Positions 3,811-33,679 of a stretch of 64,000 bases of DNA are shown piece by piece. Where the stretch lies: assembly GCA_030248135.1 (NCBI GenBank), contig JASANC010001886.1, positions 105,157-169,156 on the forward strand, given 5' to 3'. Each line of letters starts with the position of its first letter. The first letter of the stretch is position 1. Both the position numbers and the translations under genes were made by a program. Source of the stretch: Theristus sp. LFF4_11. Taxonomy: Eukaryota; Nematoda; Chromadorea; Monhysterida; Xyalidae. Below the pieces are notes generated by a model. That model had not been told where the DNA came from and did not search any database. It saw only the letters and a program-made list of their open reading frames with translations.

Positions 3811-5861
3811 TTAATCGTTCATGAAATGGGTGTTCTCACCGACGCCGCTGCTGCGTAATACGGCAACATGCGAACGCGCGTCAAATGCGCCGTCCGTTTT
3901 GATGTCACCGCCATAGAGAGTGCACGTGGACAGGGCACGATCGATCCATGCGGCTGCAACACAGGACGGTGTGGCTGCGCACAGCTGCAACCGGTGTGCA
4001 ATGTGTTTTTTAGCGGTGTGCATTCGTTTTTGACGGCAAAAAACACACGTGCGCAAAGCTGAAGCCAAAACCAAAGACATTTCACCCTGCAGCATGTCCG
4101 CTGATCAACGTTTTGTATCGGCGTGCCAACGCGATCACCGTTCTTCACCGTTGCAGCCGCGCTCCAGTTGCACGCGCGTTCATCGCTGTTGCATTGCTGA
4201 TCAACGCCATTATTGTGATTTTCATTTGTCCACCAGCACTGCGAGTTTGGCACCAGATAGAAATCCCACTTCATATCGTCACCCGTAGTGCCTGGTGTGC
4301 CGAGAAAATTGTGTTTTTTTTAATCTGCACGATCGAACCTGTACACACACTGGGGTAAATGTTGCAATTGTGTCGATTTCGGTTGTTTTGTTTTATTGGA
4401 AACCGCTGTTTCCGAAAATTAGCAAGCGTTTCAAATTTTTGTTTGAATAAATTTTTTTCTGTTCAAATTCAAAATTCTGTTCCGAAATGGAACCAAATCA
4501 CCAAAGAATTCGGAACAATTTCTTTCTTTGTTTGCTGGAAACAAGCTGGAAACAGAAAAACTGTGTGATGTGTTTTGCGGAAACAGTTTCTGAAAACACA
4601 GAGACTGAAGCTGAAAAGCGTGCCAATTTTGTGCCACCAACTTAGCGCTGTCAACTCGGGCATAAAGAAGCGTGTGTTATCGAACGTCGCCACTCCGCCG
4701 GCAAGCGACTTGAATCCGTAGCCGACTTGCAGCTGTTCGTTGAAGATGATGTTCTCATTGACGACCTCCTGCTGACGGTCGTCACTCGCGGCAGCATTCG
4801 ACTTTGGCCACATTGAGACCGTCAAATACTGTGGTCGACCGTCATCGTCTGTATCGTTGAGCTTTTTAAAGATGCGCGTTTCACCGTCGCACAGGTGTAT
4901 GTAGGTGTATCTAATTTCGGACTTGTCGGGCAGATCAATTTTTGAGCAGAAATTCGTCGTTCGCGAGCAGCAAAACGCGAACAGTTCTGCGTGCTCGAGT
5001 GAATCGTCGATCGCCACTAAATCCGTAATCGATAACGCTGCGCTGCATCGACCGTAGTTCTGTGAGCGCCAGTGAAAGAGTTTCGTTCATCAACAGTTTG
5101 GCTTGAAGTTTTTTGTTCACTGCTTGAGAAATGTGTGGTGATTATTCTGTTTTAGATTTTGCAACAGCACAAATTGGTTCGAGAACACTAAAATTTTGAT
5201 GCACAGACAGCTTCAGAGCGTCACTTGCAATTTTAATTCAACGGTGCAAAATTCAACAAGTTCATGAGTTTGAATGAAAAGTGTATGAACGGAATCGGGA
5301 CGAATCAATCTATGAAACGCGAGAAAGCACATTTGGCATGACCAGGAAGAGCCCGATCAACTGGCGTTTTTGTTTACTCGAAAAGAACATACATGTTGTT
5401 TGTGCAAATAGCTTGTGACCGTCCAGCGAGTTGTGGCATGTTTTGTTTCGTCAACACCCCCACTCATCGCTTTCTCAACCGACTCTCTATCTTTGCAGGA
5501 GTGTCTGTAAAACAATCTTTTATCCAAACATGCATTTCTGAGGAAACGCTTCTTGCAAACTCACATTTTTTCAAGTAGTTCGTGAATATTGTCTCTCCAA
5601 TCAATGCCGTATTGCATGCTCTCCAGTGAACTCGACTTTGCAAGAATATCGGCTGCCCAGTCGACTCGATTGCGCTTCGTTATCTGAGAGATGCGATCAA
5701 TAATTGGGCCCCACTACTCTGCGTGCTATTGTTCGCAGAATTACGGAAAAGTCATTGGGTACACAAGCACACGCAGTCGTTGTTACCCGTTTCAGAGTTT
5801 CATCAACACCGTTTACGTCGCTCTTCTCTGCAGCGTGACAGACGCCAACCATTAGCCACAA
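3811..5861 (-). CDS. Gene A: secreted Cys-rich protein with C-terminal PAN/apple-like module (left-arm paralogue of gene D)
   Basis: Unrecognised family. Exons in transcript order: 5861-5787, 5713-5565, 5504-5393, 5059-4642, 4291-4086, 3984-3811 (stop TAA). Every junction has AG/GT borders and compatible phases (0, 2, 0, 1, 0), giving 377 codons plus stop. The first listed exon reads LWLMVGVCHA then AEKSD, like the end of a signal peptide. A tiny upstream exon at 5982-5974 (ATG AAA ACT before GT) would complete it, but this is tentative. Visible motifs are FCCSR..NFC, ETRIFKKLND and VSMWPKS in exon 4, CWWTNE and DQRTCC in exon 5, and LCAAT.SCVAA...TCTLYGGDI in exon 6. The last resembles a PAN/apple domain (paired Cys, then C-x-L). 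Exon by exon it matches gene D. The gene lies downstream of gene B on the same strand. Role is inferred to be extracellular; function unknown. Confidence 0.72.
4298..4641. other. Gene A intron 4 (AT-rich)
   Basis: This intron, 4292-4641, lies between exons 4 and 5 of gene A. It contains several copies of a GTTTCCGAAA/GGAAACAG-like motif but no convincing coding frame. Confidence 0.45.
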
Positions 5862-6083: not shown

Positions 6084-9000
6084 TTAAAAAAAGCCACGGG
6101 ACAGAACCTGTTTTACGTATCGCACAGCGTCGTTCCACAGGTTCGGATAGACTTCCGGAGGGACTTTTGAAAACGGCATCGGATAGTTGAATAGATGATC
6201 ATAAAGGGAGCCCATCAGGGCACTTGGCTTCTTGACGACGCAGCGATGTTTGAGCGCATCGAGATCGCTAACGTGGTGCCCGTCGATGTAGTGCAACCAG
6301 TTGACAGCGTGCTGTTTTAGGGCATCAATCTTGAACAACAGGTCGCGAGTCACTTGTCCGATTTCATCAGCAAAGTCGGCAGAATCTAGTTCACGTCTGA
6401 TCTCAGATTGCAGCGTCGTAAGCGCTCGTTTTTCAGCGTTCGCAAGTGCGACCGACGAGTCGTGCGTCAGTTCGTGTTCGTGTTCATCAGAGTTTGCGGC
6501 CAGCGCGTTGCCAGCGGCCAGAATCAGCAGCAGTTCGTTTGCGTTTGACGTTCGTTTCGCAATCCCTGCCAGCTTATCGGCGCTCTGTATTGAATATGCT
6601 AGTGCTACATGTTCCATGAAGTACAGCCTATCTCGCTAATATATGCAACTAACTGATTGGTTAGCCAAAGCAATTCTCGGCGCTGATTGGTTGGTTATGA
6701 GCAATTCCCAGCCCTGACGTCATGTTGCATATATTTTTCAGATGGACTGTACACTGGGAAATAAAAAAAAACTCCTATGGGGCTTGAGATGGGTTGGGAA
6801 ACAGTTCTTGTTTGCAAGTCCACGCACCAAAATCATACATTGTAAATGTCTCATAAAAGCTTCTGTTGTTGTGTATTTCCGAATATTTCATGATGTGATT
6901 CACGGAAACACTTTCGAAAATTTCAAAATGCTGAAAACATTTTGAAAAGCAGAGGCAGAGATACGTAGCTGAAACATATATGATCATGGTGCGTAGACGC
7001 GACTTGCATTTTGTAATAAAGTTTGCTGTTTGCGGTGTCGCCTGCCCGGTGCCCCCTGGCTCGGCAGTGGGATGGACACCAGGCAGAACTTCATAAGGTG
7101 TTTCACCACAGACAGATATGATATTATCTAAAAATGCGGGAGACGCATATAAAAGGAGGAATATGGCTTTGTGTAAGCAGTGAAAGACTTGGCTTGACAA
7201 CGCTTTTCAAGCCTCTGATGTGGTACACACGGATACAAGTACACAATAGTAATATTTTTGTGCCGCGTTTGTTTTGCTGAAAAGCGAAAAAAAAACTTTA
7301 AAACTATTTTATAATTGTCCTCTCCAGTTTAGTCTGACATTCTCGAGCGAAATTCTGTAACTCTGTGCAAAAACACAACAATCAGAGACTGCGATTGCAA
7401 AACACTGCTGCGTGTAGCATTATCGTTGCTAACGTAGTGTACGCACCGCTGTGTACACACCAGCACCAGTGACAAAAAGGTATTGTCTTTCGTTAATTTT
7501 CACCCTTTTTTACCAAACTCTTGTTGATTTGCGTGGGAGTATGAATGTAGGCTAAACCGTCCGTCCCGTGAGCAAATTGCCTTTGCCACAGAAAGGGACA
7601 TTGAGTAAACCAATGCCTCTGCGATACACTTTGTCCTGGGCAAACCAGTGTCAGCGATCTAAAGTCTGATTGTTATTTCAGTGGTTTTAGCTTTAGTGGT
7701 CGCTCGCTAAATGCCCGAAATACCGCAAATGTGAAAGTTTCATTTGTCTACAATGTACGAGTACGAGGGTTGCCATGTGCAACCGAAATAATGAATAAAC
7801 GGCGCAAAAATATGGCTCTTATGTACTTGTATCCGTGTGTACCACATCAGAGGCTTGAAAAGCGTTGTCGAGCCAAGTCTTTCACTGCTTACACAAAGCC
7901 ATATTCCTCCTTTTATATGCGTCTCCCGCATTTTTAGATAATATTCTGACTTTTACATAAGCCCCGAAGGTCGGACCAAATTCACAATTCGTTGGGCACA
8001 CATTCTTCTGAACTTTACATTCGGCAACAACACAGGTTTTTCATGGGGCTGGGGTTGGGTTGGGGCAAAAAACTAATTATAATTTCAAAATCTATATATG
8101 AAATTACCCCAGGAAACATTTTTGGTCGGTTATGAGCCAATTTCAGACAAAAATTGAAAGGGCGACATTTGAAACCAGGCTAAAACTCCGAACATTTGAA
8201 AATGCCCAACGTTTTGCCCAAAAAGGGCCGGGGAAAAAGTAGTTGGATTTTCAAAATCTACGGATGAAATTACCCAGGAAACTGTTTTGTTCGGTTGTAA
8301 AACAACTTTAGACAAAAATTGCCCAATTTTTAACCCAAAAAGGGTCGGGGCAAAAAGTAACCGGATTTTCAAAATCTACGGATGAAATTACCTCAGGAAA
8401 CTGTTTGTTTGATTATGAAACAATTTCAGACAAAAATTGAAAGGGCGACGTTTGTAACCAGGTCAAAACCTGCGAACTTTTGAAAATGCGCGATTTTTTG
8501 CCCAAAAAAGGTCGGAGCAAAAAAGTAATTGGATTTTTAAAATCTACGGATGAAACTACCATAGGAAACCATTTTGTTCGGTTATGAAACAACTTTAGAC
8601 AAAAATTGCTCAATTTTTAACCCAAAAAGGTCGGGCAAAAAAGTAACCGGATTTTCAATATCTACAGCTGAAATTACCCGAGGAAACTTTTTTGTTCGGT
8701 TATGAAACAATTTCAGACAAAAATTGAAAGGGCGACATTTGAAACTAGGTCAAAACCTCCGAACTTTTGAAAAGGCCCAATGTTTTACCCAAAAAAGTCG
8801 GGGCAAAAAAGTAATTGGATTTTTAAAATCTACGGATGAAATTACCCAGGAAACTGTTTTGTTCGGTTGTAAAACAACTTTAGACAAAAATTGCTCAATT
8901 TTTTACCCAAAAAAGGTGGGGGCAAAAAAGTAATTGGATTTTTAAAATCTACAAATGAAATTACCCAGGAAAATGTTTTATTCGGTAGTAAAACAACTTT

Positions 9001-12000
9001 AGACAAAAATTGTCCAATTTTTAACCCAAAAAAGGTCGGGGCAAAAAGAAACCGGATTTTCAAAATCTACAGCTGAAATTACCCCAGGAAACTTTTTTTG
9101 TTCGGTTATGCCATAATTTTTAACCCAAAAAGGGTCGGGGCAAAAAAGTCGACATTTGAAACTAGGTCAAAACCTCCGAACTTTTGAAAATGACCAATTT
9201 TTACCCAAAAAAGGTCGGGGCAAAAAAGTAATTGGATTTTTAAAATCTACGAATAAAATTACCCAGGAAACCATTTTGTTCGGTTATGAAACAACTTTAG
9301 ACAAAAATTGCCCAACTTTTAACCCAAAAAGATCGGGACAAAAAAGTAACCGGATTTTCAATATTTACAGCTGAAATTACCCCAGGAAACTTATTTGTTC
9401 GGTTATGCCTAATTTTTAACCTTAAAAGGGTCGAAGCAAAAAAGTAATTGGATTTTTAAAATCTACAGCTGAAATTACCCCAGGAAATTTTTTTTGTTCG
9501 GTTATGAAACAGTTTCAGACAAAAATTGAAAGGGCGACATTTGAAACTAGGTCAAAACCTCCGAACTTTTGAAAATGCCCAATTTTTAACCCAAAAAAGA
9601 TCGGGGCAAAAAAGTAATTGGATTTTTAAAATCTACGGATGAAATTATCCAGGAAACTGTTTTGTTTGGTTGTAAAACAGCTTTAGACAAAAACTGCCCA
9701 AATATTTTTAACCCAAAAAAGGTCGGGGCAAAAAAGTAACCCGATTTTCAATATCTACAGCTGAAATTACTCCAGGAAACTTTTTTGTTCGGTTATGCCC
9801 AATTTTTTACCCAAAAGGGTCGGGGCAAAAAAGTAACCGGATTTTCAAAATCTACAGCTGAAATTACCCCAGGAAACTTTTTTGTTCGGTTATGAAACAA
9901 TTTCAGACAAAATTTGAAAGGGCGACAATTGAAACTAGGTCAAAACCTCCGAACTTTTGAAAATGCCCAATTTTCTACCCAAAAAAGGTCGGGGCAAAAA
10001 AGTAATTGGATTTTCAAAATCTAGGGATGAAATTACCCAAGAAAACCATTTTGTTCGATTATGAAAAAACTTTAGACAAAAATTGCCCAATTTTTTACCC
10101 AAAAAGGGTCGGGGCAAAAAAGTAACCGGATTTTCAATATCTACAGCTGAAATTACCCCAGGAAACTTTTTTGTTCGGTTATGAAACAATTTCAGACAAA
10201 AATTGAAAGGGCGACATTTGAAACTAGGTCAAAACCTCCGAACTTTTGAAAATGCCCAATTTTTACCCAAAAAAGGTCGGGGCAAAAAAATAATTGGATT
10301 TTTAAAATCTACGGATGAAATTACCCAGGAAACTGTTTTGTTCAGTTGTAAAACAACTTTAGACAAAAATTGCCCAATTTTTTACCCAAAAAAGGTCGGG
10401 GCAAAAAAGTAACCCGATTTTCAATATCCACAGCTGAAATTACCCCAGGAAACTTTTTTGTTCGGTTATGAAACAATTTCAGACAAAAATTGAAAAGGCG
10501 ACATTTGAAACTAGGTCAAAACCTTCGAACTTTTAAAAATGCCCAATTTTTTTACCCAAAAAAGGTCGGGGCAAAAAAAGTAATTGGATTTTTAAAATCT
10601 ACGGATTAAATTACCCAAGAAAACCATTTTGTTCGATTACGAAACACCTTTAGACAAAAATTGCCCAATTTTTAACCCCAAAAGGGTCGGGGCAAAAAAG
10701 TAACCGGATTTTTAAAATCTACAGCTGAAATTACCCCAGGAAACTTTTTTGTTCGGTTATGAAACAATTTCAGACAAAAAATGAAAGGGCGACATTTGAA
10801 ACTAGGTCAAAACCTCCGAACTTTTGAAAATGCCAGTTTTTTACCCAAAAAAAGGTCGGGGCAAAAAAGTAATCGGATTTTCAAAATCTACGGATGAAAT
10901 TACCCTAGGAAAGTATTTTATTCGGTTATGAAACCACTGTAGACAAAAATGGAAAGGGCGAACACTTAAAACTGGTGAAAACCCTGCGAACTTTTAAAAA
11001 TGCCCAATTTTTTACCCAAAAACAAGGTCTGGGTAAAAAATTAACCCAATTTGCAAAATCTCCGGATGAAATTACCCCAGGAAACATTTTTGTTCGGCTA
11101 TGAAAATGCCCCAGTTAAAAATTGAAAGTGCTAACACATCTTGATGATATAGCTGAAAAAAAAGGAGAAACAAGAATAAGTAACCAAGATTTCAGAATAG
11201 GTTTTTCGTGTCTACAACGGACGTAAAGAAGTCTGATGGAATTTTCTCTTCGGCACAGTTAGCAACCACTGCAGGTCTCTTCGTGTGCACAGTAACAAGT
11301 TTCCAGCATGTATGTTCGTTGCTGTAGGACAACGCGTAAATTTTGAAAACCCGCGCAGATCCATGTCCAGCCATATAATGCGTGATGCGCTGTCCGCTCG
11401 CTTCGCTCGCTCGCGCATCCGCATGATAATTTTGAATAATTGGATAATTGTTGCTTTTTAAAAGCAGTTGCAATTTGGGTAAGTTTTTACCGACCTTTAC
11501 TGCAGTTATCTCAAGTTTCCCATTGATATCAGTCGTTACTTCGTCCAGAAATTGAAACGTCGCTGAAAATAGACTGTCCGTTTGACTCCGAAGACGTTTT
11601 AGCTCGTTCGAGATTTTGTTGAACGGATTAATGTTGCTGATGTCTTTGTTCAACAGTTGGTAGATGTCAGCATCGAATTGAATAACTTTCATTCGCATAA
11701 TTAGCTGTGCCTCGAGTGCTTCTTTGATGTGGCTCATGATGTTGCCGTTGTTGTTTTGTGTTGCGCGTTTCTGTGTATTGTGTGAAGTAGCTGACAAAAG
11801 GTATTTATCGTCGGAGAAACGCATATTATTTTCAAATGCACGTGTATAGGCCACAGGGTTAAAGGGTTGGCAAAAAATGTAAGCTTTTTCAGTTAAAAAA
11901 AGTTAAAAATAAAAGTCTTTTGGGGGAAGCAAACAAAGATTTTGCAATTAACGCAGCCAAATTTTGGTTATTTTTAAAAACTGCATTTTCAGTAGTTTTT

Positions 12001-14766
12001 TGCGTTTTTATCAGTTTTTAACAAAAAATGTTTAACACAGCAAATGGAGTCATTGACTCTACGTGGTTGCCCCGGTTTTCAATAACCGCGGACAAAACAA
12101 TAACCAGCACACAAATGGTTTGGCATTGTAAGCAGGACAAAAAAAATAAAAATAAAAAATAAAACAAAAAATACCTGGTAGTGTTCGCGATTCCAGGCCG
12201 CACGTCGGCGACGATGGATGGCCGGCAACCGATTCCCATTTTGGTTTCCGTTGCGATTGAGCGGCACAAATTGGAAAATGTCCAAATTTTTTTCCGGCAA
12301 GCCGTCTGGGAACATTTTTTCGATGATCCTTTGGCAGTAATTTGTACACACCACGGTGCCATTGGCGGCGGGCAGCGCACGTTTTTCACGGTGGTGCTCG
12401 TTTTGTGGTGTTGCTGAGTTTAAAAAGGACATATCCATAATTTTTTGAATTTATTATTAGCGATTTCAGACACGTTTTCCGTTCAGAAACGACAAAAAAG
12501 GACATATCCATAATTTTTTGAATTTATTATTAGCGATTTCAGACACGTTTTCCGTTCAGAAACGACAAAAAAGGACATATCCATAATTTTTTGAATTTAT
12601 TATTAGCGATTTCAGACACGTTTTCCGTTCAGAAACGACAAAAAAGGACATATCCATAATTTTTTGAATTTATTATTAGCGATTTCAGACACGTTTTCCG
12701 TTCAGAAACGACAATAACGAAGCTGTCAGCAACCCAAAATTGACACATACGTACCGGCACCAGCTGCGGTGAAAGTTAGCTGCAGAGTGTACGATGTAAG
12801 ATCTTTCAAATCAGCAGTCAGTTGTTCACGCCTGTCGACCAGTCCCATCTTGTAGGCCAACTCGACCGCCCGCAGCTTTTCCTGAAGTGCGTTTGTGTTG
12901 GCACGCAAAACCGTGACCAAACTACAGTATGACATGTTCAATTGGACACACATCTTGCTTCAAATTTTTTAAACGTATGTCGCAATATGCATTTGCGCGC
13001 ACAAGGAAAAAATATTTCACGGCTGCGCAGCAATTTGAAATCACGAAAACTAAACGTATTCTGACGGCAGATTTTCCGAAAAAAAGAAAAAAGCGAATCA
13101 GTCTCTTTTTCATGCAGATGTTTTACATTTTTTCGGATGCCGTTCCGCCGCAAAACAGCGCGTTCGGTTTTTTAGCGGTGCGGTTTTTCCTCACTATACT
13201 TCGCCTCCTTCTAACTAAAAGGTAATAGCAGTATCATCCCTGATGACACAAAACAGAGCTAAAGTGCATATAATTGGGCAGGTTTCAAAATGACAAAACC
13301 TGTCGTTGATTGAAGTAATCCTGTGTCGACAGTTCCACTTGTGCCATCTCATAGCGTGCCCAGTCGAGTTGCATCTTCTGCTGTTGATAATATTCGCGCA
13401 GCGCGTCAATGATGATTCGTGCTTCTTTTTCGTCACTCTCATTTGAGTTGACTGTTGTACGTGCGCCGAGTACACTAATGGCTGTTAGAACCTGTGTGTG
13501 TTTGTAACTATAATAACTTCACTCAGTGTTACTGTGAGATACGGTATGACCAATTAAACATGGCAGCATTTATCAAGGTGCAAAGGCGCGCGCGAAATTT
13601 GAATGAAAAAAGACGTTCAGAAATTCAATTGCATGTCAAATCTGCCGTGTTTTTTAAACTCATTGGTTCTTCGTGCTGTTCTGTTCATTCTTTGTTTTTT
13701 GCGCATATGATTTTAAAAAATCTTGGCATTTTTGAAAAAGACAACTTCTAGTTTGCGAATGATTCCGCCTTGATTGAAAAGACCAGGACTGCCTTATTTT
13801 TTTCGGCCATACTGTAAGTATCGCAACACATGGACGTTTTTTGTCCCAAAGCGATTGTAAACGTTTTTCCACTTCAAGTTACACCGTTAGGTAAGTTTCC
13901 AATTCACTATTACATTTTACAGCTGTCCAATCAAATTCAAAACCTTGATTGGAATCGACTGATTTTTCTCTTATAGCAGAAAAGCGCAAAATTTTTCTGC
14001 ACGTCATAAACGTTCAAAGCCCGACCGTCCGTACCGAATTACGGCCTTTCGCACGACACGTAGCTATGATCTTTTATTTTGGTCCCGCAACTCAATGCGC
14101 GCATAGATAGGTAAACAGTTTTATGGATGACGCGTGAATTCAAAATTGGTAAAGTGATCCGAGTCCCCTACTTAGGTGACTTTGAATTGCCACATAAAGA
14201 TTGAAACTACGGAATGGCCGAGCAAACATGGCAGCTTTTTTCAGGGTGCAAGGAGCGCGCGAAATTTGAATGAAAGAAAAAAGACCTTCAGACACCAAAT
14301 TCTGTGTCTAATTTGACACGTTTTTTAAACTAATAGATTTTGTGTGATCAATCTTTCTCCGATTGCACACATGGTTAAGAATTATGTTGGCATTTTCGAA
14401 AAAAGACAACTCCCAGTCTGCGACTGATCCCCGCTGAAACTTGCGGAAACGCGTGCAAACAAAACTTTCAGTTTCCGAAAAAAAATTTTGCTTGAACATT
14501 TTATTTGCTCGGGAATTTTAAATTTCAAATATGAATCTGTCTCGATCTTTTTTGGCAACATAACTCACTTCTAGTGGCGGTACCAATTGATGCTCATTGA
14601 AAACTGTTGTCACCATTGCCACACGTTGTTTATTGCGATGCACTGCAGATTTGTCAACGATGTTTAAAGCTGATGTTTCATGGAACAGTAATGTACTGCG
14701 AATCACTGCGGTCAACACCAAAATCACCAGGCTCTGTCTTCGCTCGTTGAATAGAGGCCACTTCAT
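6084..14766 (-). CDS. Gene B: secreted proprotein-like coiled-coil protein, 510 aa (left-arm paralogue of gene C)
   Basis: Unrecognised family. Six exons in transcript order: 14766-14569, 13491-13300, 12881-12755, 12413-12175, 11770-11495, 6584-6084. Phases 0, 0, 1, 0, 0 all close and the total is 1533 nt (510 aa plus stop). Start ATG at 14766 is followed by a basic then hydrophobic stretch (QSLVILVLTAVIRS), a likely signal peptide. Exon 2 opens VLTAISVLGAR, the same as gene C. Exon 3 ends LTSYTLQLTFTAAGAG against FTSYAVGLTPAGGTG in C. Exon 4 has REKR (residues about 181-184), matching the furin pattern R-x-K-R, then two Cys (TVVCTNYC). Exon 5 has VIQFDADIYQLL. Exon 6 contains NWLHYIDG and PPEVYPNLW. 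Intron 5 (4.9 kb) has been enlarged by composite unit 2. The open frame running past the exon 5 donor at 11494 is intron. Function unknown. Confidence 0.78.
6622..6751. mobile_element. MITE family M2 copy (TACAGTC ends, AGCTGATTGGTTG interior)
   Basis: The ends read TACAGCCTATCT and, inverted, AGATGGACTGTA, with TA at both borders. The interior repeats GCTGATTGGTT. Related copies lie near 16801-17000, 39029-39205, 49207-49338, 56651-56831 and 63047-63175. It sits in intron 5 of gene B next to the last exon. Confidence 0.7.
7122..7944. mobile_element. R1 element, copy 2 (~820 bp, long terminal inverted repeats)
   Basis: Left end TATTATCTAAAAATGCGGG and its inverted copy at about 7808-7944 match copy 1. 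It starts composite unit 2 inside intron 5 of gene B. Just left, 7020-7110 carries a piece (CACCAGGCAGAACTTCATAA) that is inverted relative to 770-840 inside copy 1, so the two copies are internally rearranged. Confidence 0.75.
8045..11135. repeat. Satellite B array, ~3.1 kb
   Basis: Tandem units of roughly 130-145 bp alternate in a higher-order pattern. Landmarks are GGTCGGGGCAAAAAAGTAA, GGAAACTTTTTTGTTCGGTT and AACTAGGTCAAAACCTCCGA, the last recurring near 8170, 8450, 8740, 9160, 9550, 9935, 10225, 10515 and 10800. Short open frames on both strands are by-products of the repeat and are not genes. A short inverted stretch of the same satellite lies at 30545-30930. Confidence 0.9.
11137..11450 (-). 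repeat. Conserved end of composite unit 2, with a coding-like tail
   Basis: On the minus strand the frame ends GQRITHYMAG, then TVHTKRP and SVVDTKNLF before a stop. The same order (GQRITHNM, TVHTKRT, AVDTKNLF, stop) occurs on the plus strand at 30290-30492. Conservation of frame suggests a decayed coding segment carried by the element. It joins gene B exon 5 in an open frame only because the intron happens to lack stops; the splice donor is at 11494. Confidence 0.55.
12424..12712. repeat. Tandem repeat: four near-identical 72-bp units in gene B intron 3
   Basis: The unit starts AAGGACATATCCATAATTTT and recurs at about 12425, 12497, 12569 and 12641 with almost no divergence. It makes up most of the 341-bp intron 3 of gene B (12414-12754). 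Confidence 0.95.
13542..13815. mobile_element. MITE family M1 copy (~270 bp, CGGCCATA ends)
   Basis: Left end TACGGTATGACCAATTAAAC and inverted right end TTCGGCCATACTGTA are flanked by TA. The body carries GGTGCAAAGGCGCGCGCG and GACAACTTCTAGTTTGCG. Other copies lie at 14210-14440 (partial), 16006-16275, 25221-25489, 32894-33162, 37304-37571 and 38836-38890 (end only). It lies in gene B intron 1. Confidence 0.85.
14068..14165. repeat. ~100-bp dispersed repeat (TATTTTGGTCCCGCAACTCA)
   Basis: A similar block ending in GGTAAACAGTTTTATG and AAAATTGGTAAAGTGATCC occurs at 22728-22830, at 41270-41345 (inverted) and, diverged, at 43505-43590. Confidence 0.6.
14210..14440. mobile_element. MITE family M1 copy, right end degraded
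   Basis: It starts GAATGGCCGAGCAAACATGG and contains the family blocks GGGTGCAAGGAGCGCGCGAA and AAAGACAACTCCCAGTCTGC. The right terminus is missing or decayed. It lies in gene B intron 1. Confidence 0.7.
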
Positions 14767-16275: not shown

Positions 16276-16572
16276 TAATCTCTCTGTATTACGACACTAA
16301 TCTTGAGAATTTTACAGGTTTTGCATGTTTTTCTCAAACGTTCTCTGTAAAGAAACACGCGTGCTTTATGTAGCTTGAAGGGATCACCCGCGGTACTCGG
16401 CAGGTGCATGGCGCCTGTTGAATGAAAAGTCGTCATTTTTCATTTTTCACGTCCACGTCTACGTCACGTGACACACAGTGAAATGAAATGTTTTCTAATT
16501 CGTTCTGTTTTAGAGGCGTCCCGTTCAGCAAAGTAAACCGTCATTTCATATCTTCCCCATTCTGACGCCACA

Positions 16573-22917: not shown

Positions 22918-22997
22918 GGGCATTCATGAAGCAGTATTTAGTGACGCGCAACTGTGTTGAAACATAGCGGTCACTAAATATTGCTTCATGAATCCTT
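22918..22997. mobile_element. Minimal hairpin element (~80 bp)
   Basis: GGCATTCATGAAGCAGTATT at the left is the reverse complement of the right end (AATATTGCTTCATGAATCC), with a loop of about 17 bp. The same termini flank larger elements near 187, 3720 and 40286, so this could be an extreme deletion derivative. Confidence 0.7.
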
Positions 22998-23305
22998 AAG
23001 TCTGTCATCCTACCAGAGTTTTTAACAAGGAATATGAATCTGCCCTAACTTTTACTCTATTCAGTTGTTTTTTGGCGGCCATGTGAAAATGCGCATTTTG
23101 CCCTTCTTTCATACACTCGACCACAGCTAGAGGATTCAAATTGCAGCCAAAAGTACACAAGCGGTTCCAACTAAATATGCGCATATGGGTTTGCAATAAG
23201 CGTCGTTTTTGGAGAAAACTGCAGATTTAGAAAGTATTACGATTTTTTTCAGGTTTTCCTGAAAAGTGATTCCGGATTTGAATAAATCCACTGTTAATTT
23301 TCCAG

Positions 23306-26300
23306 GCAGAAAGATACACTCACGTTCATCTTGTCACTGATGTTCTGTTAAAGTCGCCAACGGTTGATAAACTGAAATATGGAATCAAATGGGATCACAA
23401 CATTCACTACATGATACATGAAATAATGTCAGTTTTGTTGTCACTGTTTTTTACTGCAATGATTATATTCATGAAACTTGCCACTTAGTTTTATAGGGAT
23501 CGCTTGGTTCACCGTGAGCTGTATAACAAAACGACAAACGACCTGCCCCCGTCAGCTGAGATTCAGCGTCAGTTTCAACACGCCGTTCTTCGTATGTCTG
23601 TCGGAAGCTACGTGCATAAACAAAAGGTTTTTTGACCGCAATTTTAGGTTCGATCTGTTTCCAGTAGTAGCTAGTACACCAGAGAAACGGCAATTCTAAT
23701 GCTTTAGAAGCAAAACAATGCACCTTAGAAGCAACGCACTGCTGTGACAAAAATGCGCAATTTTGAACCTGATCACGGTCGCGCACCAACCAATCATCTA
23801 ATGCCCTAAATTTTCTAGTCGCACCATACGTACAATGTACAGAGTGGGCCAAAAAAAAGGTTCCATTTTCAAACTGCTGTCACTGGCTGGTATTTCAATA
23901 TTATGAGCTGAAATTTTCAGCATTGATAAAACATGTGATGCCATTTTTCTGACAAAATTTTTATCTAGTTTGGTCAAGTAGATTCAGTTTTACAGCACAA
24001 TGTTTAAAAATTCCCAAATTTTCAAAACAAGGATTTTTAACCAAGAATTTAACAATGAAAAATTGCTCATAGACATCCAAATCATCATCAAGGTTTGTCG
24101 TCCGGCAGCGGCTGGATGAAATTTTTCGCGAAACTGGCGAGTCACTGCAGAAAAACTTTCAGATTGCTCCCACCAGATAGCACACCAGACCCGTTGTTCT
24201 GCTGTCCACTTAACCATGACGAAACTGCAGAAAACTGAAACTGAAACACTGTTTTTATTCAAACCGCAGAAAAACTTTTTAAAAGAAACAAATTAGCAGA
24301 CAGAGCAACACAGAAAACAAAAAATCAACTGAACAATTCTTTCTGTCGCAGTCGCATGGCTGCTGACTCGAGTCCGTTGTGAAACATCAGAATTTCGCTC
24401 GAGGTGCTCAAATGCAATTCAAGTGTGAGACCTTTCCACTCTGAGCGCATGATTTGAACTATTACGGGTATCCAAAAAAACCAATTTGTCACCTTCGCAA
24501 CAGTTTCAAAATTGAATCACGCATTTTGATACTAAATTTTTCTTGCACTCATTTCAGTCAATTTGTTGATTTTTCGAGCTTTTTTAAAAAATCTGCCACA
24601 GTGACCGCTAAGAATTATATATCGGAAAAAAAATTTTGTCAGTAAAATGGCAACGCATGTTTTATCAGTGCTGAAAATTTCAGCTCATAATATTAAAACA
24701 CCAGCCAGTGACAGCAGTTTGAAAATGGAACCTTTTTTGGCCCACCCTGTATATTAATAATACTCGTATATTAATACTTGATGACCTTTTTACAAGCTGC
24801 TGTACTGCTGTTATTAATGGGTATTAATTGAATGTTCAAAAACTTTCTCCAGAAATACGAGCCGGGCAACCACCACCCGCACCCCACATCGATGGACATT
24901 GCAATCGCGAACGAAACCAACGAGTATCCGACATTGATGGCGTTTTGTTGTTCCCGGTCGACGAATTTCTGCTACAAAATGACTATCAAGCGGTATATGC
25001 TGTGAAGTATTAGTGAATTTAAGACCCACCCCGTTTACTGCCCCCCTCCCCATTAAAGAACGCAGTGTTCAAGAAAAGCCCAATTTTTGAATTCGTCAAC
25101 AGCTTACTTCCGTGTAGAAAACCAGTTTTTTGTTTTTCAAAACAAGCGTCGCCAGTTACGGTTATCCAACAGGACTGTTACCAAGATAGTCGTCTCCATG
25201 AGCGGCCTCTATGTACATACAGTACGGCCGAATAAATGAGGCAGTCCATCAAGGCGGGATCAGTCGCAGACTAGGAGTTGTCTTTTTCAGAAATGCCAAC
25301 ATAATTCCCAATCATGTGTGCAAGGGAGAAATAATGCACAGAATAGCGCGGATAATCCATTGGTTTTCAAAAACGTGTCAAATTACGCACGCAGTTTGGT
25401 TTCTGAACATCTTTTTTTCATTCAAAATTCGCGCGCTCCTTGAATCCTGAAAAAGCTGCCATGTTTAATCGGCCATACCGTACAATGTATGTCAAAACGG
25501 TATGCGGCTCTTTTGGACGACGGCTCATTATTGCACAGTTCTTTGCTGTTGCTTGGCTGAGAGGTGGCTCATAGGAACGCCTTAATATTCAAGACTGTAC
25601 GGTTCACCGTGAAGTCTTGCATACAAGGTCTTCATTTTAAATTTGAAAATCAAAAATTTCTGAAAGGAGTGGAATTTTGTGTGACAACCTTATAAGTGGG
25701 AGGAGGTCTTATAAAGCGGAGATTAGGAATTCCGGACCTTATAAACAGGGTAGGATTTTCAACCAATTTTGAATTTTTTGGTTTCCCGCCATGTGACACA
25801 CAGCCCACTTTTGGGTGGGGGTTTTATAAGTGGAAGGAACCTCATATGCAAGACTTTCTGGTAACTGCCTGTCCCAGCGGTGACCGCAGCTGAAACAAAT
25901 CAGAACGCCTTCATGGAGAAAAAAAAGGAAGAGATGCCATAATTATTTACTCGGCCATAACAATATATTGCGGATTTACTCAAACGTGTCCTGACTAAAA
26001 TGACATCATTTGCTTTAAAAACGCCCGTTTGTCAAAGTACAGGCACTAAAATGTTAGTTTGGTGTGACTGATTCGACATTCACGATTTATTTACGGGAAT
26101 AAATCGGCTAAACGTAAAGTCTGGTTTGCTGTGGACGGAAAGCGCATGTTTGGCAGCACATGACGTCATTTCAGTGGGACGCGTTTAAAAAAGTAGGTCA
26201 TACCATACTTTTCTTGACATGTTTTTTATTACTGCGTGAACTCAGAGACGACTACATGCGTGTGTGCGATGACGAAACTCGCATCTTTAAAAAGCTCAAC

Positions 26301-29300
26301 GATAAAGACGACCAGGGTCAGACACTGTATTTTGCGGTCTCGATGTGGCCAAAGTCAACAACCGCTGCTTCGGAACAGATAGACCAAGAAGAAGTAGTGA
26401 ACCGGAATATTGCTGTGAACGAGCAGTTCGGTGTTGCATTCGGATTCAAATGGGTTGCCGATATCGATGAGGCCTTTGCGAATGCACAGTTATTTATGCC
26501 CAGAGTGGCAGTTCACGGTAATGAATAGCAATTTCAGTTTTGCTTTGCATCACTTTTTAATGTTAAAAAGTTTAAAAAAAAATTCAGTGCAGTCTTAATT
26601 TAATACATAAAGCGAGCAGCCTGCAGCCTGCATATGCACTTGTACTTGCGATTACACTGTACATTTGGGACAAAAACATCACAGGAGCACAGCAGAACAC
26701 TTGGGACGTCTATATGGCGGAAAACGCGCTATGCTGGTGGACGAATGAAACGAACAATGATGACGAAGATTGCAACCGCACCTGCACGTGGAACTCCCAC
26801 TCACGAGTGCTTGGCGAACGTTTGGCAGGGCCGTTCTTAAACATTGACCAAAAGTCATGCTGCCAAGTAAGCCATTGAAAACAATTATCGGTTGAGGTTA
26901 TGAAATGTGTTTTGAGTTTTGTGAGGAAACAGGATGCGTAACAAGTTGGCTAAAAAAGTTGGCGAGTGTCAACCATTTGTCAGCCAGTTTTTTCTGGTAG
27001 ATTCGGACTATTTATTCGATTAGCGGTTTCGTTACGGGGACTCAAAGCACCAAAAGGGAGATAAAGGACGCGGAAAAACGGGCCTCGGTGGTCAAGTGGT
27101 CTAAGGCACTGGTCCGGACTCCGGATAACCAGGGACGTGGGTTCGAATCTCACTCGAGGTTTCATTACTTTTTCCGATGATGCCAGCATCTCTTTTCAAA
27201 ATATATATTATATATATATATATATATATGAGGCCTTCCGCCGAAAAATCGCCCCACAGTGGACAGTCTAGATTTTTGACTTGTCTCCGAATCGGCTCAA
27301 ATTTTAACACAGTTAAGTATATTCATTTTGCAGGTCAAAAACAAATTTTCAGCCCAATCGGCCCAAAAACACGTCCGCTGTGGCCTTTTTAATGAGGTAC
27401 CCTATTTTTGGAGGAGGTCATTTTTGGACCCCAATTTTAAGGCATGTTCGGAAAAATGTCACCATTGGCTAGTGGTTAAACGAATTTGGCTGAAATTTGA
27501 ATCGTACATTGGCAACATATTGGGCTAATTTCTGAGCAATATTTCATTAAAAATGATTGTTGCACATGTTTGCTGCAGTTGTTTAAACATGATGCTTTTT
27601 GACAAAATTCTCAAAATTCAAAATGCTCTGTAGGCTCTGTTCAAAAGGCGCACGCCCAATGAATGAATTTGGCTGAATTTTTGCATGAAGGTTTCTATTA
27701 TATAGGGAAAACAGTGTACAAAATTTGGACCGGGGACCAGTTGCATTCCTGAGTTGCAGCAGTTTTAAGTTGAACTCAGGAAGAAAAAGTGGTCATTTTC
27801 GGAAAAAACTGAAGTTTTTCGATTCGCTAGCCATTCATTTTGCATTTTTATCGCTCTAAACAAAGTATGTTTTAAACCTCCTAAATACGTTGCTGCAATT
27901 AGTTTTTTGTTTATTAAGTTTTGGGCTTGATTAAACAACTGAAATGGTCGTAAACTTCAGCATTTTTACATACAGTCAATTGCGAAACTGCTCTGTAGGT
28001 GCGCCCAATGAATGAATTTGGCTGAATTTTTGCATGAAGGTTTCTATTATACAGGGAAAACAGTGTACAAAAATTTGGACCGGGGACTAGTTGCATTTTT
28101 GAGCCACGGCAGTTTTATTTTGAACTCGGAGGAAAAAGGAGTCTGTTTCAAAAAAAGCTGGTGTTTTTCAAATCGGATAATTTCGTTTGTTTACACTGCC
28201 CGAATAATGTTTGTGGTGTGCTACATGAATGCCAATGCAATTGTTGTTGTAATCGTTGTTTATTGGATACCGCTGCTATTGCAGCAATGTGACAAGAAAG
28301 AGTAGTGTGTTGAAAACTTCATTTCGTCTTGCTCGCGGCATAAAGTGCTATGTTATTTTAGAAATCATTTCTGAGTTGCAAAAACAATACGGCTGTAGCA
28401 CGTCAAAGGTTCATCCAAACAAAAAGAAAAATTACACGCTGTTACTGTGCCCAAAAACGCTTTTCAAATACCAAATCCGCCGAATTTCCGCAGGCCCCTC
28501 AACTTTCTACTCAAATTCAAAACTGGTTGCACATGAATTATTGAAAAATAACATGGCACTTTATGCTTGAAATTTGTAAAATTTGAAAACTAATTGCAGC
28601 ACCGTATTTAGGAGGTTGAAAAACATACTGTTACTTTGTTTTGAGCAATAAAAATGCAAAATGAATAGCGAATCGAAAAAACTTCAGTTTTTTTGAAAAT
28701 GACCACTTTTTTCTTCCTGAGTTCAACTTAAAACTGCTGTAACTCAGGAATGCAACTGGTCCCCGGTCCAAGTTTTTGTACACTGTTTTCCCTGTATAAT
28801 GGAAACCTTCATGCAAAAATTCAGCCAAATTCATTCATTGGGCGCACCTACAGAGCAGTTTCGAATTTAACTGTATGTAAAAATGCTGAAGGTTACGACC
28901 ATTTCAGTTGTTTAATCAAGCCCAAAACTTAATAAACAAAAAACTAATTGCAGCAACGTATTTAGGAGGTTTAAAAACATATTGTTATTTTGTTTAGAGC
29001 GATAAAAATGCAAAATGAATGACTAGCGAATCGAAAAACTTCAGTTTTTTTTTCGAAAATGACCACTTTTTCTTCCTGAGTTCAACTTAAAACTGCTGCA
29101 ACTCAGGAATGCAACTGGTCACCGGTCCAAATTTTTGTACACTGTTTTCCCTGTATAATAGAAACCTTCATGCGAAAATTCAGCCAAATTCATTGATTGG
29201 GCGCACCTACAGAGCAGTTTCAAATTTCTCAATATGCAAAAATGGTGAGGTTTACGACCATTTCAGCCGTTTAATCATGCTTGAAATTTGTTAAATTTTA

Positions 29301-32300
29301 AAACTAATTGCAGCAACGTGTTTAGAAGGTTGAAAAACATATTGTTACTTTGTTTAGAGCGATAAAAATGCAAAATGAATGGCTAGCGAATCGAAAAACT
29401 TTAGTTTTTTTTCGAAAATGACCACTTTTTCTTCCTGAGTTTAACTTAAAACTGCTGTAACTCAGGAATGCAACTGGTCCCCGGTCCAAATTTTTGTACA
29501 CTGTTTTCCCTGTATAATAGAACACCTTCATGCAAAAATTCAGCCAAATTCATTGATTGGGCGCACCTACAAAGCATTTTGAATTTTGAGAATTTTGTCA
29601 AAAAGCATTATGTTTAAACAGCTGCAGCAAACATGTGCAACAATCATTCTTAATGAAATATGGCTCAGAAGTTAGCCCAATATGTTGCCAATGCACGATT
29701 CAAATTTCAGCCAAATTCGTTTAACCACTAGCCAATGGTGACAATTTTCCGAACATGCTTTAAAATTGGGGTCCAAAAATGACCTCCTCCAAAAATAGGG
29801 TACCTCATTAAAAAGGCCACAGCGGACGTGTTTTTGGGCCGATTGGGCTGAAAATTCGTTTTTGACCTGCAAAATGAATATACTTATCTGTGTTAAAATT
29901 TGAGCCAATTCGGAGACAAGTCAAAAATCTAGACTGTCCACTGTGGGGCGATTTTTCGGCGGAAGGCCTCATATATACAGTGGCGGCCAAAAGTGTTGTA
30001 ACGCTGCGCGCGTGAGTGCTGTGTATTGCGCGCGTGTTGCATCAGCCGTACAAACGCTATTATTAGAATTTAGGAGCAACGTTAGGTCGAAAAGTGTCCT
30101 GTGAACCCAACGTTGCCCATAAATTTTTATAATAGTGTTTGTACAATTGATGCAACACGCGCGCAATACACAGCACACACGCGCGCAGCGTTCCAACACT
30201 TTTGGCCGCCACTGTATATATATGTATATATATTAAAATATATCAATATGAATATATCATGCGGATGCGCGAGCGAGCGCCAGCGAGCGGACAGCGCATC
30301 ACGCATAATATGAGCCGTTATCCCCCTCGCGCGCTTTTTTCAAATTTGCTCGCTGCGTCCAGCGAGCATAGTATAAGCCACAAACTTGGCACTGTGCACA
30401 CGAAACGAACACCCAAAGTTGTGCTTGGAGCCGCGAAAAAAATTTTATCCGACTACTTTTCATACGCTGTAGACACGAAAAACCTATTCTGAAAACAGTG
30501 TTACTTCTTTCCCTTTGTATTTTTTTTTTCAGCTATGTAATCAACATGTGTTCGCCCTTTAAATTTTTGCCTGCGACACTTTCACAAATGAACAAAAATG
30601 TTCCCTGGGGTAATTCCATCCGGAGATTTTGAAAATGGGGTTAATTTTTTACCCAGACCCTGTTTTTGGGTAAAAAATTGGGCATTTTTAATTGTTTGGA
30701 GGGTTTCACCTGGTTTTAAGTGTTCGCCCTTTCAATTTTTAGCTGGGACACTTTCACAGTTGAACAAAAATGTTTCCTAGGGTAATTTCATCCGTATTTT
30801 TTGAAAATTTAGTTTATTTTTTTGCCCGGGCACTTTTTTGAGTTAAAATTGTGCATTTTTGAAAGTTCGTAGCATTTTGACTGAGTATCAGTTTTCACTC
30901 TTACAAATTTTGTCTGAGCTACGAAAAATAATAGGAAAAAAATCTAGTCCGTAGTAATTCAATGCGCTGATCACGGATTTTGGGTTAGTTTTCTTACGTG
31001 AGCAACTCTAGATGCTGAATCGTGACGATTTCCGGCGAATCGGCCGTGGAAATCGGCGAAATCGGTCCAGAAATGAAAAACAAGAAAACTATGTTTTCCA
31101 GTGTAATTCAATGCGCTGATCACGGATTTTGGGTTAGTTTTCTTATGTGAGCAACTCTAGATACCGAATCGTGACGATTTCGGGCGAATCGGCCGTCGAA
31201 ATTGGCGAAATCGGTCCAGAAACGAAAAACAAGAAAAGGGTGTTTTCCAGAGTAATTCAATGCGCTGATCACGGATTTTGGGTTAGTTTTCTTACGTGAG
31301 CAACTCTAGATACCGAATCGTGACGATTTCGGGCGAATCGGCCGTCGAAATTGGCGAAATCGGTCCAGAAACGAAAAACAAGAAAAGGGTGTTTTCCAGG
31401 GTAATTCAATGCGCTGATCACGAATTTTGGGTTAGTTTTTTATGCAAGCAACTCTAGATGCTGAATCGTGACCATGTCGGGCGAATCGGCCGTGGAAATC
31501 GGCGAAATCGGTCCAGAAACGAAAAACAAGAAAAAAATGTTTTCCAGGGTAATTCAATGCGCTGATCACGGATATTGGGTTAGTTTTCTTACGTGAGCAA
31601 CTCTAGATGCTGAATCGTGACGATTTCGGGCGAATCGGCCGTGGAAATTGGCAAAATCGGTCCAGAAACGAAAAACAAGAAAAGGGTGTTTTCCATGGTA
31701 ATTCAATGCGCTGATCACAAATTTTTGATTAGTTTTCTTATGTGAGCAACTCTAGATACTGAATCGTGACGATTTTGGGCGAATCGGTCGTGGAAATTGG
31801 CGAAGTCGGTCCGGAAACGAAAAACGAGAAAAAGATGTTTTCCAGGGTAATTCAATGCGGTGATCACGGATTTTGGTTAGTTTTCTTACGTGAGCTACTC
31901 TAGATGCTGAACCGTGACGATTTCGGGCGAATCGGCCGTGGAAATTGGCGAAATCGGTCCAGAAACGAAAAATAAGAAAAGGGTGTTTTCCAGGGTAATT
32001 CAATGCGCTGATCACGGATTTTGTGTTAGTTTATTCAAGTGAGCAACTCTAGTTACAGAATCGTGACGATTTGGGGCGAATCGGCAGTGGAATTTAGTGA
32101 AACCGGTCCAGAAATGAAAAACAAGAAATCGGTGTTTTCCATGGTAATTCATTGCGCCGATCACGGCTTTTTGGGTCAGTTTTCTTATGTGAGCAATTCT
32201 AGGTACTGAATCGTGACGATTTTGGTTGAATAGGCCGTAAAAATAGCATAGACGAAATTGGCCTAAAAACGAAAAATGAAAAACCTGAGTTGTCCGGGGT

Positions 32301-33679
32301 TTAGAAGAATGTGTGACCAACGTATTGTGATTTTGGTCCGACCTTTGGGGCTTATGTAAAAGTCAGAATATTATCTAAAAATGCGGGAGACGCATATAAA
32401 AGGAGGAATATGGCCTTGTGTAAGCAGTGAAAGACTTGGCTCGACAACGCTTTTCAAGTCTCTGATGTGGTACACACGGATACAAGTACATAAGAGTCAT
32501 ATTTTTGCGCCGTTTATTTTTTATTTCGGTTGCAAGTGGCAACCCTCGTACATTGTAGACAAATGAAACTTTCACATTTGCTTTTTTCTAGCATTTAGCG
32601 ACCTTTAAAACCACTAAAATAACGATCAGACTTTAGATCGCTGACACTGGTTTGCACAAAGTGTATCGCAGAGGCATTGGGAACGCAAGGTCTCCTTCTG
32701 TGGCAAAGGCAATGACTCACCGGTTTATCCTGTCACAAGAGTTTGGTAAAAAGGGTGAAAATCAACGGAAGACAACACTTTTTGCACTGGTGCTGCTGTA
32801 TGCACAGCGGTGCGTACGTCAGCAACAACGATAAAGCTACATGCAGCAATGTTTTGCAATCTCTGATGTTTCTGTTTTTTTGCACAGAATTTACAGTATA
32901 GCCGATTAAACATGGCAGTTTTTTTCAGGGTGCAAGGAGTGCGCGAATTTTGAATGAAAGAAAAAGAAGTTCAGTAACCAAATTGTATGCCAAATTTGAC
33001 GCGTTTTTTTAAACTAATGGATTATCCGTATTATTCTGTTCATTCTTTCTCCCTTGCACACATGATTGGAAATTATGTTGGCATTTTTGAAAAAGACAAC
33101 TCCTAGTCAGCGACTAATCCCGCCTTGATGGACTGCCTCATTTATTCGGCCATGCTGTACAGAATTTCGCACATGATGTGATTTTAGACTAAACTGAAGA
33201 GGACAATTGAAAAATATCTAGATACAATGTAACTTCAAAGTTTTTACGCTTTTCAGCAAGCTTTTAAACAACAAACGCGGCGCAAAAATATGACTCTTAT
33301 GTACTTGTATCCGTGTGTACCACATCAGAGACTTGAAAAGCGTTGTCGAGCCAAGTCTTTCACTGCTTACACAAGGCCATATTCCTCCTTTTATATGCGT
33401 CTCCCGCATTTTTAGATAATATATATATATATTCAAACTTATATATTTATATGATACAAAAACGGAATATTTTTATGATACTTGTTTTTTAAGCTCTGCG
33501 CTGCCACTCGCTCGTGTGTCGCAGCGGAGTTTATTGGGGAATGGTACACGACTTGTTCACTCTACAGCGGTGACATCATGGTTCGTCCACACCACGATGC
33601 TCACCGGCATGTCTCAGTCATGCACCATGACGAAACTAATGAGTGGTGGCACAACTACTGGTACAACTACACTGAATGA
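23306..33679 (+). CDS. Gene D: secreted Cys-rich protein with PAN/apple-like module (right-arm paralogue of gene A), 5' end not found
   Basis: Unrecognised family. Exons found: 23306-23427, 23497-23626, 24853-24992, 26246-26517, 26685-26866, 33494-33679 (stop TGA). Borders are AG/GT and phases 2, 0, 2, 1, 0 all close, giving 343 codons plus stop. Each exon matches gene A: LKYGIKWDHNIH with MQYGIDWRDNIH; SYVHKQK with SYLHKQH; FCCSRSTNFC with FCCSRTTNFC; ETRIFKKLND in both; CWWTNE and DQKSCC; and LCAATRSCVAA...TCSLYSGDI. Gene D has an intron (24993-26245) where gene A has continuous coding sequence. The last intron is 6.6 kb and holds a foldback element, a palindromic MITE and composite unit 3. 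The exon encoding the signal peptide was not located upstream of 23306. Function unknown. Confidence 0.72.
23838..24751. mobile_element. Mariner-related element with transposase N-terminus remnant
   Basis: The ends TACAGAGTGGGCCAAAAAAA and TTTTTTGGCCCACCCTGTA form inverted repeats of about 110 bp that include AATTTTCAGC and CAGCCAGTGACAGCAG. It sits in the gene D intron between exons at 23626 and 24853. At 914 bp it is too short for a full transposase, and the only coding remnant is the N-terminal HTH below. Confidence 0.88.
23990..24217 (-). pseudogene. Truncated transposase N-terminus (HTH, DUF4817-like)
   Basis: The frame from ATG at 24217 begins MVKWTAEQRVWCAIWW and continues AVTRQFREKFHP. 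This matches the known helix-turn-helix pattern of mariner-related transposases (basic start, T-x-E-E/Q-R, then x-A-V-x-R-x-F-R-x-x-F). After about 45 residues homology ends, and there is no DDE/D catalytic domain, so it is a remnant. Confidence 0.65.
25221..25489. mobile_element. MITE family M1 copy in gene D intron
   Basis: It runs from TACAGTACGGCCGAATAAAT to TTTAATCGGCCATACCGTA, in opposite orientation to the 13.5-kb copy. Confidence 0.85.
25597..25870. mobile_element. MITE family M4 copy (ACCGTGAAGTCTTGCAT end)
   Basis: Shared with 63424-63667 in inverted orientation: GTCTTGCAT, CCACTTATAAGACC and GGTTTCCCGCCATGTGACAC. It is bounded by inverted GTCTTGCATACAAGG and CATATGCAAGAC ends. Confidence 0.75.
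25963..26208. mobile_element. MITE family M5 copy (~245 bp), ending 37 bp before a gene D exon
   Basis: Inverted ends are built on ACTCAAACGTGTCC and GGGACGCGTTTAAA, and the inner blocks are AAATGACATCATTTGC and GCACATGACGTCATTTC. Other copies: 47127-47363 (inverted) and 57273-57510. Open frames starting inside it (from the ATG at 26160) run into the real exon that begins at 26246. Confidence 0.8.
27082..27161 (+). tRNA. tRNA-like sequence with enlarged anticodon loop (possible tRNA-Arg-derived pseudogene or SINE head)
   Basis: The acceptor arms GCCTCGG and TCGAGGT pair over 7 bp. The D arm (GGTCAAGTGGTCTAAGGC) and T arm (GTGGG-TTCGAAT-CTCAC) are canonical, with good A and B boxes. The anticodon stem CTGGT/ACCAG encloses 14 nt (CCGGACTCCGGATA) instead of 7. 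CTCCGGA within it would be a CCG (Arg) loop but does not sit in the normal position. It could be a decayed tRNA or contain a non-canonical intron. It lies in gene D's last intron. Confidence 0.55.
27206..27229. repeat. (TA)n microsatellite
   Basis: Alternating TA run directly at the left border of the large foldback element; it was probably its target. Confidence 0.9.
27231..29972. mobile_element. 2.7-kb foldback element with very long inverted repeats
   Basis: The left end AGGCCTTCCGCCGAAAAATC and right end GATTTTTCGGCGGAAGGCCT are inverted, and symmetry continues through TTTTGGACCCCAATTTTAA and CCAGTTGCATTCCTGAGTT. The arms contain repeated ~350-bp units (GGCTGAATTTTTGCATGAAG near 27670 and 28020; inverted near 28805, 29165 and 29530). 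The unique centre (about 28190-28570) has a short frame with no recognisable protein. It lies in gene D's last intron. Confidence 0.88.
29976..30216. mobile_element. Palindromic MITE (TACAGTGGCGGCCAAAAGTG ends), 241 bp
   Basis: TACAGTGGCGGCCAAAAGTG and its reverse complement close a nearly complete palindrome. The arms include GCGCGCGTGTTGCATCA. TA borders and the TACAGTGGCGGCCAAAA terminus are typical of Tc1/mariner-type MITEs. Confidence 0.9.
30245..30520 (+). repeat. Conserved end of composite unit 3, coding-like tail
   Basis: The plus-strand frame ends SGQRITHNM, TVHTKRT, AVDTKNLF and stop, matching the minus-strand tail at 11192-11425. It borders satellite B at 30545 in the same order as in unit 2, seen from the opposite strand. 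Confidence 0.55.
30545..30930. repeat. Satellite B, short inverted segment
   Basis: It contains reverse-complement satellite B landmarks: TTTGGGTAAAAAATTGGGCA, TTCGCCCTTTCAATTTTTAG and CTGGGGTAATTCCATCCG. Confidence 0.8.
30935..32290. repeat. Satellite A array, inverted, nine ~149-bp units
   Basis: GTGACGATTTCGGGCGAATC recurs near 31022, 31172, 31320, 31467, 31619, 31767, 31916, 32064 and 32210. The orientation is opposite to that of 1245-2205. Confidence 0.92.
32367..33424. mobile_element. R1 element, copy 3, with nested M1 MITE
   Basis: The ends TATTATCTAAAAATGCGGG (left) and CCGCATTTTTAGATAATA (right) match copies 1 and 2. An M1 MITE is inserted at 32894-33162. Together with satellites A and B and the 30.25-kb tail it forms composite unit 3. 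Confidence 0.85.
32894..33162. mobile_element. MITE family M1 copy nested in R1 copy 3
   Basis: It runs from TACAGTATAGCCGATTAAAC to TTCGGCCATGCTGTA. Sequence on either side continues the R1 interior, showing later insertion. Confidence 0.88.

Follow-up and report, generated by a model that had tools for sequence, protein, structure and literature searches.

Introduction

The closest described systems for the locus treated here are head-to-head duplicated gene pairs formed by inverted segmental duplication, secreted coiled-coil proteins processed by furin, and PAN/apple proteins. The PAN/apple domain is defined, in the account of one source, by a core of four to six cysteines, those of the PAN core of HGF being Cys 70, 74, 84, and 96 (PMC9249922). 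Moreover, the PAN domains of LET-653 are described as binding the fibrillar luminal matrix in C. elegans (PMC4970718).

The window analysed here is the final 64 kb of a 169,156-base contig (C1216) in a eukaryotic assembly of 159.4 Mb, and positions are those of the window unless stated otherwise. It contains an old and well-preserved head-to-head inverted duplication of a two-gene unit, the two genes of which belong to unrelated families, and both copies appear to be functional. The unit most likely encodes a lineage-restricted pair of extracellular proteins, a function suggested by features of the predicted products.

Arrangement of the Locus

The four genes are ordered A-B and C-D, mirror-symmetric about an axis at ~15.67 kb (15.7 kb). 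B, on the minus strand, and C, on the plus strand, run outward from this axis with starts at 14766 and 16573, A lies beyond B and D beyond C, and the stop codons of A and D form the outer limits, 3811 and 33679. The splice models were drawn by eye from the DNA and from arm-to-arm likeness, with GT-AG at every junction used in the four genes. Both genes are homologous across the axis and introns are common to both arms, which together support the duplication; thus, the mirrored two-gene cassette centred near 15.7 kb that the earlier note had described is borne out by gene order, strands, the homology of A to D and of B to C, and introns. The A/D and B/C families show no likeness to each other (best E 0.064). 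The spacing is unequal, with 222 bases from the stop of B to the first exon of A and 1672 bases from the stop of C to the first exon of D, and the arm-to-arm matches outside exons (E 1e-3) are mostly repeats, not every match having been classified. In A and D, an acceptor-like site immediately precedes the 5' exon, and sites of this kind also lie upstream of the B and C start codons; a search for SL1 gave no match here, nor in the controls.

Genes A and D

Gene A (3811..5861, minus strand) is made up of open frames without stops joined by GT-AG junctions, with 40% identity to D. Six exons were found (5861-5787, 5683-5565, 5504-5393, 5059-4642, 4291-4086, and 3984-3811), comprising 367 codons before the stop, and the candidate start is either the ATG at codon 4 or lies in an upstream exon. 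Gene D (22655..33679, plus strand), drawn from open frames, GT-AG junctions, and homology to A, has seven exons found (22655-22711, 23306-23427, 23497-23626, 24853-24992, 26246-26517, 26685-26866, and 33494-33679) and 362 codons before the stop, its start codon being unsettled. BLASTP aligns the two products with 39.9% identity over 346 columns (E 1.2e-84), Smith-Waterman comparison gives a z of 118 (300 shuffles), and identity is 43% in the MAFFT alignment, all of these alignment statistics having been computed on gene models that preceded the addition of the 5' exons. Twelve cysteines are aligned, plus one more in the 5' exon, and the best-conserved exon of A gave a poor structure model (mean pLDDT 52).

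The introns of A and D coincide at columns 89, 231, and 300 and nearly at 45/41 (four columns off), with equal phases, and the intron that follows the 5' exon is of phase 0 in both. D has an extra phase-2 intron (24993-26245) that is absent from A, where the single exon 5059-4642 is equivalent to two exons of D. The proposed match between the exons of A and those of D therefore holds for homology and for most introns, but not for this one.

The 5' exon of each gene is short, begins with LWLM(V/I)GVC, and reads LWLMVGVCHAAEKSDVNGVDETLKR in A and LWLMIGVCDALTDHISIKM in D; each has a GT donor and joins the following exon in phase 0. A stretch of 27 bp, comprising the acceptor and the first codons of this exon (LWLMVGVC in A, 5839..5865, minus strand; LWLMIGVC in D, 22651..22677, plus strand), is identical at 25 of 27 positions, the best of 200 mononucleotide shuffles reaching 21; between the codons, CTA/CTT is synonymous and GTT/ATT exchanges Val for Ile. 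A 24-base pattern taken from this stretch, searched with two positions left free and a tolerance of two mismatches, has exactly two occurrences in the whole assembly, both of them here, and 0 control matches. The same likeness could also suggest a promoter element, followed in D by a TATA box; this reading was ruled out because the stretch consists of the acceptor and the codons of an open exon, and the sequence taken for a TATA box is part of that exon. Folding of the stretch as RNA supported no structure (z -0.21 and -1.01).

The sequence LWLM(V/I)GVC(H/D)A resembles the central and final portions of a signal peptide, the peptides LWLMVGVCHA of A and LWLMIGVCDA of D having hydropathies of 1.84 and 2.07 over 9 residues, with an insecure upstream start codon; an additional exon farther upstream would then have to supply the start. 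With initiation at the ATG of codon 4 instead, A and D would have no signal peptide. Upstream start exons can be written in phase, encoding MKT in A and MCTATGY in D, and such short candidates arise easily by chance. Another start exon for D, at 22773-22778, was dropped, since it sits within a dispersed repeat in the first intron (22725-22819). The contig carries four further matches to this repeat, two of them to the left of the window and the others at 14064-14151 and 41282-41342.

At their C-termini, A and D share an aligned four-cysteine core, C-x3-C-x5-C-x12-C, in agreement with the cysteine core of the PAN/apple domain. The region concerned spans the last intron in both genes, and is located at 3894..4136 (minus strand) in A, where it corresponds to aa 269-316 and matches PAN_4, PAN_3, and PAN_1 weakly, and at 26858..33563 (plus strand) in D, where the cysteine core aligned with that of A covers aa 282-308, both numbered in the models without the 5' exon. 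Against the three PAN models of Pfam, full-length A scored 19.6, 16.2, and 15.3 bits, all below the respective cut-offs of 27, 21.1, and 21.4 bits, and its C-terminal piece, in a loose scan at E 5, gave 17.4/21.1, 17.2/21.4, and 17.1/27 bits (score/cut-off). Scanned at full length, D gave no Pfam match at E 1, and its C-terminal piece was counted as matching the same three PAN models in the loose scan (E 5) alone, its own scores not being shown. Since the scores stay under the curated cut-offs, the C-terminus of A and D is, as judged from sequence, PAN-like and not that of a PAN family member.

Genes B and C

Gene B (6084..14766, minus strand) encodes 510 aa in exons 14766-14569, 13491-13300, 12881-12755, 12413-12175, 11770-11495, and 6584-6084, and gene C (16573..20982, plus strand) encodes 486 aa in exons 16573-16761, 17040-17231, 17308-17428, 19546-19649, 19787-20041, and 20383-20982. 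Their products are 36% identical over 186 N-terminal columns in BLASTP (E 2.7e-21, z 35) and 28% identical in the MAFFT alignment. The first three introns lie at columns 66/66, 130/130, and 177/176 with equal phases, intron 5 coincides in the local alignment, and intron 4 has equal phase at differing columns (212/259). When compared exon by exon, z reaches 8.4 for exon 1, 24.3 for exon 2, 4.1 for exon 3, and 5.4 for exon 6, with -0.6 for exon 4 and 1.6 for exon 5 taken alone; wrong pairings reach 3.5, so that exon 3 by itself is weak. Of the six pairings with conserved phases that the earlier note had put forward, those of exons 1, 2, and 6 stand, those of exons 3 and 5 are weak on their own, and that of exon 4 fails by sequence, place and phase being what corresponds there. 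The leaders of B (14767-14780) and C (16557-16572) have 8 bases in common, CTGACGCC, just before the start codon, which may be due to chance.

Both proteins have hydrophobic N-termini, the peaks of 9-residue hydropathy, the one measure applied here, being 3.37 in B (aa 14) and 2.31 in C (aa 15). A furin-type motif, REKR in B (aa 181-184; 12379..12390, minus strand) and RVKR in C (aa 175-178; 19566..19577, plus strand), occupies the same alignment column in the two proteins. Such a motif appears in about one quarter of the shuffles of either protein alone, but R-x-K-R is at column 188 in both B and C, and motifs that close arose in 2 of 4000 local shuffles. Moreover, the BLASTP match (B 4-184, C 3-178) ends exactly at the motif, and the remainders behind it give a z of 8.0, a score that 0 of 500 shuffles reach. 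The last exon of C (exon 6, 20383..20982, plus strand) is predicted to form a long helix of ~130 residues (exon residues 2-133) followed by a small C-terminal part, AlphaFold2 giving block pLDDT values of 72-93 for residues 1-110. In Pfam, B matched no family, and C gave an apolipoprotein-type match (E 9.9e-5; 22.6 bits, cut-off 90), of the type that amphipathic helices often yield. No membrane-spanning stretch or anchor was found after residue 40 in either protein, the best 19-residue means being 1.15 in B (aa 62) and 0.96 in C (aa 58).

Age, Copy Number, and Relatives

For A/D (326 codons), pS is 0.70 and pN 0.37, with a dS of 2.04, near saturation, and a dN of 0.51, and for B/C (469 codons) pS is 0.76, which is saturated, and pN 0.50. 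The duplication is old, as had been supposed from the divergence of the proteins, and synonymous sites are near or at saturation. Because dN is below dS, amino-acid changes appear to be disfavoured at least in A/D, and constraint seems less clear for B/C, given synonymous saturation together with a pN of 0.50.

The earlier note had asked for further cassettes to be sought in the genome, and searches with A, C, and D, which ignore introns and could therefore miss loose relatives, point to this locus only. All nine matches to D, all seven to C, and 10 of the 11 to A fell in this window, the eleventh match to A having an E of 0.74, and no further copy of the cassette was found by these searches in 159 Mb.

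No homologue of A/D or B/C was found among 5.8 billion proteins. The A/D profile, made without the 5' exon, brought up 3737 candidates, none at E ≤0.01, and none of the 7989 candidates scored for B/C was a homologue. The BRAP-like neighbour described below, used as a positive control, yielded 3893 candidates, 1822 of which counted as matches at E 1e-10, so animal proteins are covered by the database. Neither profile matched a solved structure (PDB, by sequence), a search of viral contigs with two short peptide patterns per alignment returned 192 and 38 pattern stretches and 0 relatives, and phage records searched with D gave no match. A literature search aimed at such a cassette returned nothing that, judged by the title and the opening of the abstract, concerned one, a weak test for genes that are unnamed. 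The missing homologues may reflect only unannotated relatives, since no close relative of the BRAP-like gene was listed. Thus, the description of the proteins as novel agrees with the databases searched and the positive control, but has to be qualified by the PAN-like C-terminus of A and D.

Probable Nematode Placement and Neighbouring Elements

The BRAP-like gene is located left of the window (locus L009) and encodes 316 aa in exons read by eye, its label coming from a zinc-finger signature and then from the names of matched proteins. Identities reach 51% among the best 120 of its 1822 matches, and 53% in the tree, which has 30 rows, that is, the query and 29 named rows from those best 120, the other 91 being left out. 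A 12-row set supported at 100/99 contains the query and otherwise only nematodes. Within this set the query is sister (97/94 support) to nine rows, which we take to be Rhabditida in the broad sense, and Soboliphyme and Trichinella are outside those ten. The best reading is that this neighbour would place the locus among nematodes, one gene being thin evidence; COX1 was also looked for and not found.

Repeats are present across the window. An element with terminal inverted repeats of 144-158 bp, whose arms are 96-99% identical, occurs at 222-1149, 7121-7944, and 32368-33422; its three copies adjoin satellite arrays, the first and third a 149-bp satellite and the second a different one. The arrays at 51479-52290 and 1236-2200 have different consensus units and a common period of 149 bp. 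Sequence rich in GCGAGCGAGCG lies by satellite arrays in intron 5 of B (11190-11440, minus strand) and in the last intron of D (30257-30500, plus strand), the two copies being placed mirror-fashion and forming part of a composite repeat. Intron 3 of B contains a 73-bp unit repeated four times with no mismatch (12422-12714). The last intron of D also holds a foldback element at 27223-29977, with a 967-column arm match at 90% identity, and a tRNA match in Rfam (40.9 bits) at 27082-27161 (plus strand), where ARAGORN gave none.

Farther along the window, a gene at 42551-46926 (minus strand) seems by eye to contain armadillo, TIR, and SAM pieces in this order, the TIR and SAM labels being our assumption; four of its pieces scanned in Pfam gave one weak armadillo match (ARMC5, E 3e-4, below the cut-off). 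In contig coordinates, 2660-11953 (minus strand; loci L011-L012) is an open frame of 3098 codons, which by eye we take to be a BEL/Pao-type element.

Proposed Function and Alternative Explanations

As regards the secretion ascribed to all four proteins in the earlier note, it seems likely for B and C from their hydrophobic N-termini, and possible for A and D from the hydrophobic stretch of the 5' exon, the start being unsettled. In the mechanism that we propose, the inverted duplication would have left the nematode with a lineage-restricted two-gene unit in two divergent copies. B and C would be secreted and cleaved at the conserved motif by a furin-type convertase into an N-terminal part and a C-terminal part, the latter a coiled coil that would multimerise, and A and D could be cysteine-bonded extracellular proteins with a PAN-like end that binds a partner; by analogy with the PAN domains of LET-653, they may serve as matrix-binding partners. 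The outcome would be an extracellular assembly of matrix type in two versions, each arm supplying one, for use in different tissues or stages, a tentative proposal to which we would give somewhat less than an even chance. It is plausible that the two products work as a pair, in that both arms kept both genes, yet only a single duplication event is evident. The pairing of A with B and of C with D is a guess. A stronger form, in which A with B and C with D would be the halves of one extracellular complex peculiar to the lineage and present in two versions (e.g., of sexes, tissues, or stages), appears unlikely.

The locus could also be an ordinary old inverted segmental duplication, in which the neighbouring genes are functionally unconnected and were kept for separate reasons. 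This plain explanation, likewise held at a little under evens, is about as likely as the extracellular assembly, and agrees with the single duplication event, with the differing spacing of the arms (222 versus 1672 bases), and with the failure to find an upstream stretch common to B and C (best 19/27); however, the four genes have remained open, in order, and near one another as repeats accumulated in introns and spacers. The palindromic layout alone would also suit an assembly artefact or unmerged alleles appearing as an inverted repeat, but alleles would be near identical, and a divergence that leaves 43% identity in A/D and 28% in B/C, with synonymous sites near or fully saturated, refutes this reading, to which practically no weight is given.

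Two unrelated orphan genes side by side could also suggest a duplicated and diverged selfish or incompatibility gene pair, such as the toxin-antidote pairs of Caenorhabditis; pairs of this type exist in nematodes, according to one report (PMC12136403). This appears very unlikely here, given that B and C have no membrane-spanning stretch after residue 40 and that A/D, being old and constrained, look more like genes with a settled function. Even less probable would be a relict envelope captured from a virus or transposon, to which the layout of B and C bears some likeness through the hydrophobic N-terminus, the furin-type motif, and the helix of C, whereas neither protein has a second hydrophobic anchor or a C-terminal membrane anchor, both are encoded in six exons, the two short peptide patterns used per alignment found no relative in viral contigs, and Pfam gave no family for B and no viral family for C.

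If the paired extracellular reading is true, two unrelated orphan genes were duplicated together and have stayed together beyond the point at which synonymous sites saturate, in a branch of nematodes that yielded no close annotated relative, and the locus would provide a testable lineage-specific pair of extracellular proteins.

Comparison with Known Systems

The locus has the same mirror order, orientation, and common introns as head-to-head duplicated gene pairs that arise by inverted segmental duplication, but here two unrelated families were duplicated jointly, and the event is very old. B and C resemble furin-processed secreted coiled-coil proteins in their hydrophobic N-terminus and in R-x-K-R at one alignment column, with a long predicted helix behind it in C, and differ from them in matching no family save for the sub-threshold apolipoprotein-type match of C. 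As with PAN/apple proteins, including those matching PAN_1, PAN_3, and PAN_4 and LET-653, A and D end in a similar cysteine core, whereas the remainder of A and D matches nothing and, unlike LET-653, they contain no ZP domain that could be found.
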